Source: Chlorobium sp.
GTDB lineage: Bacteria > Bacteroidota > Chlorobiia > Chlorobiales > Chlorobiaceae
Reading direction: 5' to 3'
DNA length: 64,000 nt
Assembly (NCBI GenBank): GCA_005862285.1
Contig: SZXW01000010.1
Span: 1-64,000, forward strand
A program made the position numbers and the translations under genes. This document shows positions 6,277 through 11,236 of this stretch, piece by piece; position 1 is the stretch's first letter; each line of letters starts with the position of its first letter. The notes beneath the pieces are model-generated. The model was given only the letters and a program-made list of their open reading frames with translations. It did not search any database and was not told the origin of the DNA.

Positions 6277-8097
6277 CTACTTCTTCTCCTCTTTCGCCGG
6301 AGGGAGGTCGATCTTGAGGCAGAGTTCCTTGAGCTGGGAGGCCAGTACTTCAGACGGTGCGGACATCATGAGGTCCTGTGCGGACTGGTTCATCGGGAAG
6401 GCGATAACCTCGCGTATGTTCTGTTCGTCGCGCAGGATCATGACCAGCCTGTCGAGGCCTGGAGCGATGCCTCCGTGCGGCGGAGCGCCGAGCTTGAAGG
6501 CTTCGATCATATGGCCGAACCGCTTGTCCACTTCCTCTTTTGGATAACCCGCGATGCCGAACGCCTTGTACATGATCTCAGGCTTGTGGTTCCGGATTGC
6601 GCCGCTTGAGAGTTCGATGCCGTTGCAGACGATGTCGTACTGGTAGGCAAGGATATCGAGAGGGTTCATGGTTTCGAGCGCCTCCATTTCGCCCTGCGGC
6701 ATGGAGAACGGGTTGTGTGAGAAATCGATCTTCTTCGCTTCCTCGTTGTACTCGAACATCGGGAAATCAACGATCCAGCAGAAGGAAAGCTCGTCCCTGT
6801 CGAGCTCGAAAAGATCCCCGAAATAGGTTCTCATGCCGCCCATGATCTTGCAGGTCGGCTCCCACTTCCCTGCCGCGAAGAACACCACGTCGCCCGTTTC
6901 AAGCGAAAGCTCCGCTTTCAGGGTCGAAAGCTCCTCCTCGGACATGAACTTCACGACCGGTCCTTTCGGCCCTTCTTCCTTGAACTGGATATAGGCAAGG
7001 CCTGCCGAACCGAGCTCGCGGGCGCGTTTCTCGGCTTTGTCGTAGAAGAGCCTCGATTCGTTGCCGCGTTCCTTCAGCACGAGCGCCTTCACACAGCATC
7101 CTTCTTTTGTATTGGATGCGAACACCTTGAAGGAGGAGTTCACGAAAAGCTTCGTGACATCCTGCATTTCGAGCGGGATGCGCAGGTCCGGCTTGTCGGA
7201 GCCGAAACGGTTCATCACTTCCCTGAAACTGATCCTCGGGAACGGCAGCTGGGTTATGCGCTTCTGCGACATATTCTCTACGAGGTGCTGCATGAGCCCT
7301 TCGAGGATGGCAAAGAGGTCGTCCTGCTCGATGAAGGCCATCTCCATATCGAGCTGGTAGAATTCTCCGGGGCTGCGGTCTGCGCGCGCATCCTCGTCCC
7401 TGAAGCAGGGAGCGATCTGGAAATAACGCGGAAAACCCGACACCATGAGCAGCTGCTTGAACTGCTGCGGCGCCTGGGGCAGCGCATAGAATTTGCCCGG
7501 ATGCAGGCGGCTCGGCACGAGGAAGTCCCTCGCTCCTTCCGGAGAGCTCGACGTGAGGATCGGCGTCTGTATTTCTATGAATCCTTTATCCTCGAGGTAG
7601 CGGCGGATAGCGCCGGAAATCCTGCTGCGGAAAATGATGTTCTGGTGGATCTTCTCGCGGCGCAGGTCTATGAAACGGTATTTGAGCCTCAGCTCCTCCG
7701 AAGTCGGAAGTTCGTCGGCTACCGGGAAAGGCAGCGGCTGGGCGTTGCTCTCGATCCTGATATCGCCTAGCAGCACCTCTATTTCACCCGATGCGAGCTT
7801 CGGGTTCACGGTTGCCGCACTGCGGCGCACCACTGTACCCGATACGCAGATCACCGATTCAGCATGGAGCTGTTCGGCTTTTCTGAACAGTTCTTCTCGT
7901 TCGGGCTGGATGACAAGCTGACAGATACCTGTATGGTCCCTGAGATCGATGAAAATAAGCCCGCCATGGTCCCTGATCCTGTGCACCCATCCGCCGAGCC
8001 GAACTTCGGACTCTTCGAAGGAAGGGTTCAGAAGGCCGCAGTAATGGGAACGGAAGCGGTTTGAAAGAGTCTCTGCGCTGTATCCAGCTATACTCAT
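6277..8097 (-). CDS. aspS: Aspartyl-tRNA synthetase
   Basis: A 606-residue class II synthetase of the bacterial type. The N-terminal OB-fold ([19 protein letters not shown], about residues 37-55) binds the anticodon. Motif 2 is visible as [10 protein letters not shown], the bacterial GAD insertion follows in the middle, the [10 protein letters not shown] segment precedes motif 3, and motif 3 is GLDRLVMIL near the C-terminus. It attaches Asp to tRNA-Asp; whether it also charges tRNA-Asn cannot be decided here. It lies 84 bases after the tau end of dnaX and may be cotranscribed with yihY-dnaX. Confidence 0.97.
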
Positions 8098-8181: not shown

Positions 8182-9953
8182 TCAGTACACGAGTTCCCCG
8201 CCGAACTCCCTGATGATGAACCTGACAACTTCGTTCTGCTGCGACAATTCCTGGAACAGGGTGAAGATATTCTTCTCCTTCGTGCAGGCGTCCTTTTCAG
8301 CATCGTAACTGATATGGAGTTCCAGAGGCATATCGTAAAACTCAGAAATCTCCTGCTGCAGAAGCTTCTTGTCCTGAACAAGCTCCTCATAGGAAAATTT
8401 TCGGCAGCAGGCAAGCTCGACAAGACCATCTGGAGTGCATGACGCAAGCTCGCAGGACTGCAGGTGCGTCGCCATGACATTCCTCGATTTCTTCGACATG
8501 TGCTCCAGGAACTGGTGCCACTCGAGTTTCAGCGATTCGATAGTTGCGATGTTTCCAGTTCCCCCGCTCTTCTCAACTGCACCCGTCCGTGATTGCAGTT
8601 TGGGCTTCGTTTTCCGCGGCGATGCGAAACCGGAAAATTTCTGCTGCCATGAACCGATATCGAGTTCCCCGGATACGGAACGTTTTGCGGAAGGTGGCGG
8701 CGGAGCGGGTTTTGAAGGAACGGCAGAAACAAGAGGAGCGGCCTGTTCCGGCTGCGTCAGGGGTTTGTCAGGAGCTTTTTTTTTTGTGCCTGCAGCGGTT
8801 GGCTCTGCAGGTTTTCCGGTTTCGATGCATTCACGATATCGACAAGCTTCAGCAGGGCAAGCTCGAAACGGAACTGGTACTCGAACTGGAACTTCAGCTC
8901 TTTCTGGGTCTGCAGCAGGAATTCGACCATCTGCATGACGGAAGCGGGCGAAAACTTCGCCGCATCGCGCTGGTAGCGTTCGCGCACCGCGTCGGAACGT
9001 TCGACAAGACGTGTAGAAGAGAGGTTCTGTACCACCAGCAGGTTCCTGAGGTGTTCGATGAGTTTTTCGAGAAAATCCTGCTCGTCGTAACCGTTCTGTA
9101 TCACGAACTGGGCGACATCGAGCACTTTCGCAGGATTCTGCTCGATAACCGCATCGGTGACGGCGAACATGTGATCGTCGTCGATGTAGTTCAGGAGTTC
9201 GGCAACACCGCGATAGGTGATGCAACCACCCTTGTCGTTTTCAGCGGAAAAAGCGATGACCTGGTCGAGTATGCTCTGGGCATCGCGCATCGAGCCCTGT
9301 GCTTTCCGTCCGACAAGCTGGAGGGCATCGTCCTCGACCAGGATCCCTTCGGTCTCACAGATGGATTTGAGCTGCTTCTGGATATCGAGCAGAGGGATCC
9401 GCTTGAAGTTGAACCGCTGGCACCGGGAGGCGATTGTAGCAGGAATTTTGTGGAGTTCAGTGGTCGCGAATATGAAAATGGCGTGGGGCGGCGGCTCCTC
9501 GAGCGTCTTCAGGAAGGCATTGAAGGCGGCGATCGAGAGCATGTGAACCTCGTCGATGATATAGACCCGGAACCTCCCTTTCTGGGGACCGTAGCGCACG
9601 TTTTCCCGGAGCGTGCGGATATCGTCCACGCTGTTGTTCGAAGCCGCATCGAATTCCGCAATATTGAGGCTCGTGCCGGCATCGAAATCCCGGCAGCTTT
9701 CACACTCTCCGCATGGTTCGGTAACCTGCTGCAGGTACTCGGGGTCTTCGATCATTCTTCGGCAGTTAACCGCCTTTGCGAACACCCTTGCCGCAGTGGT
9801 TTTGCCGACACCCCTCAATCCGGAAAAAATATATCCATGCCCGAGCCTGCCCATACGCAGAGAGTTCTGTATCGTCCGGGTGATATGCTCCTGTGCAGTT
9901 ATATCGGCAAATCTGACCGGCCTGTATTTCCTCGCTATTACCTGATAGGTCAT
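8182..9953 (-). CDS. dnaX: DNA polymerase III tau subunit, produced only through a frameshift or slippage at A10
   Basis: The clamp-loader ATPase starts MTYQVIARKYRPVRFADI, with Walker A GLRGVGKTTAA at about residues 45-55, a four-Cys zinc module (C..C near CGECESC), Walker B IYIIDEVHML, and sensor motifs. The frame runs to residue 398, where ten A residues (8785-8776) are followed by a stop. In the -1 frame the protein continues APDKPLTQPEQAA and then about 190 residues to 8182. This tail has a Pro-rich linker and a globular section (LEWHQFLEHMSKKSRNVM) like the tau domain that binds DnaE and DnaB. A re-read base gives a product of about 590 residues. The start overlaps the yihY stop by 4 bases. 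If the A-run is really 11, a single frame would result. Confidence 0.9.
8757..9953 (-). CDS. dnaX: DNA polymerase III gamma-like form, zero-frame product of dnaX
   Basis: Translated without shifting, the gene stops at 8757 after QKKKLLTNP, giving 398 residues that contain clamp-loader domains I-III and nothing more. This is the composition of a gamma subunit. In E. coli the zero frame makes tau and the shift makes gamma; here the arrangement is reversed as far as the written sequence shows. Confidence 0.7.
   Translation of the reverse strand: MTYQVIARKYRPVRFADITAQEHITRTIQNSLRMGRLGHGYIFSGLRGVGKTTAARVFAKAVNCRRMIEDPEYLQQVTEPCGECESCRDFDAGTSLNIAEFDAASNNSVDDIRTLRENVRYGPQKGRFRVYIIDEVHMLSIAAFNAFLKTLEEPPPHAIFIFATTELHKIPATIASRCQRFNFKRIPLLDIQKQLKSICETEGILVEDDALQLVGRKAQGSMRDAQSILDQVIAFSAENDKGGCITYRGVAELLNYIDDDHMFAVTDAVIEQNPAKVLDVAQFVIQNGYDEQDFLEKLIEHLRNLLVVQNLSSTRLVERSDAVRERYQRDAAKFSPASVMQMVEFLLQTQKELKFQFEYQFRFELALLKLVDIVNASKPENLQSQPLQAQKKKLLTNP
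8776..8811 (-). promoter_or_regulatory. dnaX recoding site: upstream hairpin plus A10 slippery run
   Basis: On the coding strand, CCTGCAG and CTGCAGG form a perfect 7-bp stem with a 9-base loop (8811-8789). CAC and ten A residues (8785-8776) ending in G follow. The zero-frame codons are AAA AAA AAG, so an A-AAA-AAG heptamer, the slippery site known from E. coli dnaX, is in register. A hairpin just before a homopolymer is also the layout that promotes RNA polymerase slippage. Either route would join the gamma and tau frames. Confidence 0.75.
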
Positions 9954-11236
9954 GAATCCTCTTTGTTAATATCCTCGAGCAGTCCGGAAACCGGCATGTC
10001 CATGGTGTTTTTCAGACACTCCGTCACCCTGCAGTATATCGTATCGAAATGTACATTCTTTCCCGCTGAAACCATGACACTGTTTTCCTCTCCTGCTGCG
10101 AAACCAGGCGGGATGATCGAGTAAAGTTCGTAAAGGGACAATTTGTACAGGTCCCTGCTGACGGCAACTTCCCCGTTCGCTGTCGTGTGAACGATCCTTT
10201 TCTGAAGCAGAATATCGACTATTTTTCTCAAAACGGAAGGGTTCGAGCGCCGGATCGATTTCACGATTTTTTTCATGTTCACCGGCTGGCCGCTGTTCTG
10301 TGCGCTCCAGATGAACCCGAGCACCGGAAGTACCATCGAAACCCCTTCGAGCGGATCGAATGACTCTTCAACACTTCTTACCGGCTTCAGCGCCCCAAGA
10401 CAGAAAACAAATTCAGCGCCGGTCAGAACAACCACCCATCCGAGATAGATCCAGAAAAAAAACATCGGGATTACCGACAGCGCCCCGTAGATATGCTGAA
10501 AGGTGGCAATGTAGGAGATATAGAACGCGAACCATTTTTTGGACAGTTCGAACAGTACCGCTGCAAACAGAGCCCCGGTCAGGGCATGGACAAATCTGAC
10601 CCTGCGGTTGGGAACAAGCATGTAGAGCAGGAAAAACGCAACGATGGAATTCAAGAAAGGGATGTAGGAAAAAAACCGTGCTTTCAGGGCGATCAGCGGC
10701 CCTTCGGTAAAGACGGTATACCAGACATAGGAACTCGCGGCAAGGCTGCTCGCAATGAGGACCGGGCCGACTGTCAGCACTGTCCAGTAAAGGGTGAAGG
10801 CCTGGATGAATTTGCGGGGAGCATGCACTTCCCAGATGTCATTGAGAACCTGATCGACGGTGGAAATCAGAAAAAGCGCGATTACAAACAGAAATAAACT
10901 TCCGATGATCGGCACATTCGCCGTCTTGCCGATAAAATCGGTCAGGTAATAGTTCAGGACATTACCGGACCCGGGCAGGAAGTTCTGGACGAGAAATTCC
11001 CTGATATAGCTTTTGAGGGGAGCAAATACCGAAAAAACATTCAGGATCGACAGAACGACCGCAAGAATTGGCACGATCGACAGAAAAGTCTGGAAAGCGA
11101 GCGAACCCGCACTGAGAAAAATCCTGTCGTGGGTGAAGTTATTCCAGAAAAAGGGTATGAAGGAGCGAAGATATTGCGCAATATCGGAAAAGTCACGGAA
11201 AAAAGTGACTCCCGTTTTTTTCTCTGCATCCCCCAT
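9950..11236 (-). CDS. YihY/BrkB family inner membrane protein with C-terminal extension
   Basis: A 428-residue protein. About residues 45-300 form the YihY/UPF0761 membrane domain: SLAFQTFLSIVPILAVVLSI is the typical first segment and GALSVIPMFFFWIYLGWVVV lies near the end of the domain, with about six membrane helices. The family was once mislabelled RNase BN; its role is unclear. Roughly 125 residues follow the membrane part and look like a soluble winged-helix-like domain (MKKIVKSIRRSNPSVLRKIVD). Its stop overlaps the dnaX ATG by 4 bases, so the two are translationally coupled. Confidence 0.88.
   Translation of the reverse strand: MGDAEKKTGVTFFRDFSDIAQYLRSFIPFFWNNFTHDRIFLSAGSLAFQTFLSIVPILAVVLSILNVFSVFAPLKSYIREFLVQNFLPGSGNVLNYYLTDFIGKTANVPIIGSLFLFVIALFLISTVDQVLNDIWEVHAPRKFIQAFTLYWTVLTVGPVLIASSLAASSYVWYTVFTEGPLIALKARFFSYIPFLNSIVAFFLLYMLVPNRRVRFVHALTGALFAAVLFELSKKWFAFYISYIATFQHIYGALSVIPMFFFWIYLGWVVVLTGAEFVFCLGALKPVRSVEESFDPLEGVSMVLPVLGFIWSAQNSGQPVNMKKIVKSIRRSNPSVLRKIVDILLQKRIVHTTANGEVAVSRDLYKLSLYELYSIIPPGFAAGEENSVMVSAGKNVHFDTIYCRVTECLKNTMDMPVSGLLEDINKEDS

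Follow-up and report, generated by a model that had tools for sequence, protein, structure and literature searches.

A conserved A10 run as a probable transcriptional slippage site for gamma and tau in a Chlorobium dnaX gene

Several described systems obtain two products from one gene at a slippery run. In Thermus thermophilus, dnaX yields gamma and tau by transcriptional slippage at an A9 run; tau is spelled by the genomic frame, stops close both non-tau frames, and two lysine tRNAs are present, a feature that Atkins et al. (2016) connected with the use of slippage in Thermus (PMC5009743). Slippage by bacterial RNA polymerase becomes efficient at about nine A/T (PMC1088944; PMC5009743). Escherichia coli dnaX also gives two products, at an A_AAA_AAG heptamer, where gamma arises by ribosomal shifting with the help of a Shine-Dalgarno (SD) element and a 3' stem-loop, and the cell has a single tRNA-Lys. 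In a Roseiflexus IS, a hairpin just 5' of the slippery run is required at the weak T5C5 site. The reversed arrangement, with gamma in the zero frame and tau shifted, was described by Antonov et al. (2013), who named Chlorobium species among the examples and proposed transcriptional realignment (PMC3711429), and Atkins et al. (2016) repeated this proposal (PMC5009743).

The gene studied here lies in a 64,000-nt stretch of Chlorobium sp. DNA (the window). In itself it does not differ from the two-ORF dnaX genes of Antonov et al., including those of Chlorobium and Chloroherpeton, in which gamma is likewise genomic and tau is reached by a −1 change at poly(A), mostly at ten A's. Since the reversed layout was described in 2013, the window gene is a further member of that kind. 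Beyond that work, our sequence comparisons appear to add a repeated switching between gamma-zero and tau-zero genes, a closed third frame and a spread across the phylum. We found no report of repeated frame switching in the literature searched, the coverage of which was partial and which is thus weak evidence that the switching is new.

Anatomy of dnaX in the window

The zero frame of the window dnaX matches the 397-position gamma model PRK14955 (NCBIfam), and the tail in the −1 frame matches positions 409–620 of the full-length model PRK14954 (9e-70, NCBIfam). The sense strand reads CTGCAGGCAC-AAAAAAAAAA-GCTCCTGACAAACCCCTGA at the run, and the zero-frame codons are CAA AAA AAA AAG CTC CTG ACA AAC CCC TGA. 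Addition of one A, equivalent to a −1 shift, opens the frame up to the stop at 8182 and predicts a tau of 590 amino acids (aa). The predicted masses are 66.8 kDa for tau and 45.3 kDa for the 398-aa gamma (Table 1). A first-pass annotation, made from the letters alone, had described a 398-residue gamma frame ending behind ten A's and a −1 frame continuing for about 190 residues with a tau-like tail; its coordinates and counts hold. It had also set the gamma boundary exactly after domain III. The boundary does fall just behind this domain, with the run beginning at codon 390, but the Pfam domain ends at residue 382 and the coincidence is not exact.

Table 1 Features of dnaX in the window
Feature	Position	Strand	Basis
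Gamma-form ORF of dnaX (zero frame, 398 aa) with AAA+ ATPase, lid and domain III	8757..9953	-	ORF, profile matches
A10 run, probable slippage site (T10 on + strand)	8776..8785	-	A9–A11 in 93/93 Chlorobiales genes
In-register A_AAA_AAG heptamer within the A10 run; possible ribosomal slip site	8775..8781	-	
Zero-frame TGA stop of gamma	8757..8759	-	
TGA closing the third frame, which transcripts lacking one A or carrying two extra would use	8768..8770	-	
tau-specific tail, −1 frame, stop included	8182..8775	-	profile match; tau-frame constraint
Upstream hairpin (7-bp stem, 9-nt loop, 3 nt from the run); optional and not conserved	8789..8811	-	

The in-register A_AAA_AAG heptamer noted at first pass is indeed present. 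However, an A run of this length in this phase always contains the heptamer, which is thus no independent evidence. The ORF upstream of dnaX (9950–11236) shares four bases with it, and the 3' neighbour (6277–8097) is aspartyl-tRNA-synthetase-like as named by eye. Tail substitutions between the window gene and its nearest relative (L002) numbered 20, 11 and 41 at codon positions 1, 2 and 3, respectively. The concentration of close-relative changes at third positions indicates that selection acts on the protein that the tail encodes in the tau frame.

The A run and the genomic frame among relatives

We compared 93 dnaX genes from 92 Chlorobiales genomes, these being the order members in which the region was found; the published short-run cases C. 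chlorochromatii and C. phaeobacteroides lie outside this sample. As the first-pass annotation had suggested, the run was followed through the relatives, and a run of A9–A11 stands behind domain III in all 93 genes (A10 in 84, A9 in 8 and A11 in 1), a length at the slippage threshold of about nine. No second run of nine or more A's occurs anywhere in these dnaX genes (156,863 nt). The share of AAA among dnaX lysine codons is 12% in Chlorobaculum and 45% in Chlorobium, and the 2.61-Mb genome to which the window belongs holds 14 distinct runs of at least ten A's on either strand. The presence of the run at this site is thus not a matter of chance. One metagenome-assembled genome (G094), probably a strain mixture, contributed two dnaX contigs that differ slightly from each other; each has A10 and is gamma-zero.

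The zero frame spells gamma, with tau needing one more A, in 77 of the 93 genes, which share the layout of the window, and tau in the remaining 16. Among the A10 genes, 69 of 84 are gamma-zero. Relatives with an uninterrupted frame and no conserved run or hairpin had been named at first pass as evidence against recoding; uninterrupted tau frames do exist in these 16 relatives, yet all 16 keep the run. A maximum-likelihood tree built from the gamma part of 86 genes requires no fewer than 11 changes of frame state, of which at least nine are forced by well-supported branches. At least eight changes remain when A10 genes alone are counted, so most switches came from small indels outside the run. 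One such gene (L025) carries, relative to its sister (L022), an extra base about 10 nt upstream of the run. Tau-zero genes include those of Chlorobium sp. N1, Chlorobaculum thiosulfatiphilum DSM 249 and a single-contig genome of 2,154,946 bases (G080), possibly that of C. tepidum TLS; the zero frame spells gamma in the isolate Chlorobium ferrooxidans DSM 13031. A closely related pair differs in both run length and frame: Chlorobium phaeovibrioides BrKhr17 combines A9 with a gamma-zero gene, and bin.97 combines A10 with a tau-zero one.

The frames that do not lead to tau are closed shortly behind the run. Both end within 13 codons in 90 of the 93 genes. Within ten codons past the run end, both are stopped at 97% of sites, whereas control positions taken from these tails reach 6.7%; singly, the values are 100% and 97% versus 18% and 37%. 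These percentages are inflated by the relatedness of the genes, and the switches mapped on the tree come closer to counting independent events. A −1 ribosomal shift has no use for the third frame, yet this frame is stopped within ten codons in 74 of the 77 gamma-zero genes; all 16 tau-zero genes likewise close the equivalent frame. The stops are supplied by different sequences, with 59 distinct 12-mers following the run. The relatives amount to a natural experiment, in which the product spelled by the genome switches repeatedly and the run and the off-frame stops are kept. This evidence from sequence suggests that selection acts on both forms of the clamp loader in these bacteria.

The run extends beyond the order. 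In 39 of 60 further dnaX genes of the phylum, A9–A11 lies within 40 codons after domain III; none of the 60 has such a run in the next 160 codons or a run of nine or more T's in the 200 codons after domain III. Thirteen of the 39 run-bearing genes are gamma-zero and 26 are tau-zero, with both states present in one family (f15). In one of these genes, from a single draft genome (L306), tau is reachable only by the loss of one A or the gain of two.

Transcriptional slippage and its alternatives

The data support the central proposal of the first-pass annotation, that recoding at the A run would give tau and the genomic frame gives gamma. We regard programmed transcriptional slippage at A10, yielding both proteins from one gene, as very probable. 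RNA polymerase transcribing the T10 template would stutter and release dnaX mRNAs with varying numbers of A's. On mRNAs with 10 (or 9, 12 or 13) A's, ordinary translation would stop within about ten codons and produce the 398-aa, 45-kDa gamma, and mRNAs with 11 (11+3n) A's would encode the 590-aa, 67-kDa tau. By homology, the tau tail is expected to link the clamp loader with the other parts of the replisome. What the sequences show is the anatomy of the gene, the conservation, the frame switching, the off-frame stops and the constraint on the tail; that slippage takes place, in what ratio the products arise and that both are needed are inferences. Because slippage would spread transcripts over three frames, the choice of genomic frame should matter little, and indels beside the run could then flip the frame with the run and the off-frame stops being kept. 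Polymerase slippage thus accounts for the length of the run, for the indifference to genomic phase and for the stops that close the two non-tau frames.

Comparison with Thermus points the same way. Both genes have a run of at least nine A's, stops in both non-tau frames and a genome with two lysine tRNAs, as tRNA-Lys genes with UUU and CUU anticodons both occur in the window's own genome. The difference lies in the genomic frame, which is tau in Thermus and gamma in the window; the 16 tau-zero relatives have the Thermus arrangement.

Of the two mechanisms considered at first pass, slippage is favoured on these comparative grounds, and ribosomal shifting, which the heptamer had been taken to favour, less so. 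In this second explanation, tau would come from −1 programmed ribosomal frameshifting at A_AAA_AAG, by the E. coli mechanism with the products reversed. The heptamer is in register, the second product lies in the −1 frame in every Chlorobiales gene of the sample, and C. phaeobacteroides has been mentioned, as unpublished, as an E. coli-like candidate (Atkins et al., PMC5009743). However, runs of at least nine are retained where seven would do, and neither E. coli stimulator stands out. A downstream stem-loop is missing, with z scores of +0.41 for the window and +0.15 on average over the 93 genes, and SD-like pairing upstream differs little from control (mean −3.5 versus −2.6 kcal/mol; strong sites 21.5% versus 18.9%). 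Unlike in E. coli, tau rather than gamma needs the shift, and tRNA-Lys(CUU), cognate for AAG, is present. Further arguing against this mechanism, the third frame is closed although −1 shifting never enters it, and the draft-genome gene L306 cannot reach tau by a −1 shift. We therefore consider ribosomal frameshifting as the source of tau rather unlikely. It could nevertheless add to slippage, or replace it, in nearly all of these genes, because every long A run contains an in-register slippery heptamer. The published Chlorobium dnaX genes with eight and seven A's, the latter in C. phaeobacteroides (PMC3711429), have runs shorter than slippage usually requires and may rely on ribosomal shifting instead.

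Slippage might also be tolerated rather than used, rescuing a neutral frameshift in a gene whose only useful product is tau, with gamma as waste. Insect endosymbionts offer known cases of such rescue at long poly(A) stretches (PMC5009743). The 16 tau-zero genes have no need of rescue, yet all of them retain A10 or A11 and early stops in the two remaining frames, and 26 of the 39 run-bearing genes elsewhere in the phylum are also tau-zero. Mere tolerance is thus unlikely.

Very unlikely is phase variation by replication slippage, in which run length would differ among cells and toggle tau. A9, A10 and A11 do occur among species, and BrKhr17 and bin.97 differ in this respect. However, run length is nearly constant and the frame flips by indels outside the run, as in the eight changes among A10 genes. 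In addition, a tau-off state would be costly, since E. coli cannot do without tau. Translation of the tail by itself from an internal start, giving two separate proteins, was rejected as highly improbable: its frame is open and adjacent, but the first 92 codons contain no ATG, GTG or TTG, and tau-zero relatives encode one fused protein. An assembly or sequencing error hiding a true A11 and an ordinary single frame, suggested by the error-proneness of homopolymers and by one relative with A11 in frame (L012), is excluded for practical purposes by the conservation of the run, as exactly A10 recurs in 84 of 93 independently assembled genes, 69 of them gamma-zero, including that of the isolate C. 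ferrooxidans DSM 13031.

Our preferred explanation remains slippage, and the frame is probably chosen during transcription. For the phylum as a whole, we lean towards a scenario in which slippage at a fixed A9–A11 run behind domain III is an old and widespread route to gamma and tau, the genomic frame is nearly free to drift because all three frames are sampled, the two states interconvert repeatedly, and a 5' hairpin tunes the rate in some lineages. 'Frameshifted' dnaX genes in assemblies of this phylum should be neither corrected nor called pseudogenes, and, if the slippage reading is true, the label 'split' or 'intact' tells little about the products of the cell.

The upstream hairpin and other long runs

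Three bases upstream of the run, as the first-pass annotation had stated, lies a perfect 7-bp stem (CCTGCAG/CTGCAGG). The hairpin and run together fold with −11.3 kcal/mol (z −3.7), and a 7-bp stem appears in 0.65% of shuffles of the 40 nt upstream. A stem of at least 6 bp ending 1–7 nt before the run was found in 13 of 82 Chlorobiaceae genes, versus 3.9 expected from shuffles. No such stem occurs in the ten order members outside Chlorobiaceae or in the nearest relative, L002. The hairpin had been taken at first pass to favour slippage; a deciding role is not supported by this distribution, and the hairpin was also rejected as a necessary element because only these 13 genes have one. The modest enrichment leaves room for a tuning role, possibly like that in the Roseiflexus IS, though not a general one. 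Both hairpins stand just 5' of the slippery run, but the A10 run of the window should be slippery by itself, and most relatives do without a hairpin.

Other long runs were seen in passing. In the window, the T9 of the + strand at 1249–1257 is an A9 within a 340-codon minus-strand frame. Elsewhere in the same genome, an A10 run (C1:279413-279422) lies near codon 49 of a frame that looks TonB-dependent-receptor-like by eye, and a sense-strand T10 (C1:709583-709592) lies in a 395-codon frame that looks ABC-transporter-like by eye. A further A10 (C9:172642-172651) is found in a long open frame, with 543 codons in the stretch read, which by eye resembles the linker of an FtsK/SpoIIIE-type translocase (FEEQRKKKGEKQ) and may be another slippage site.
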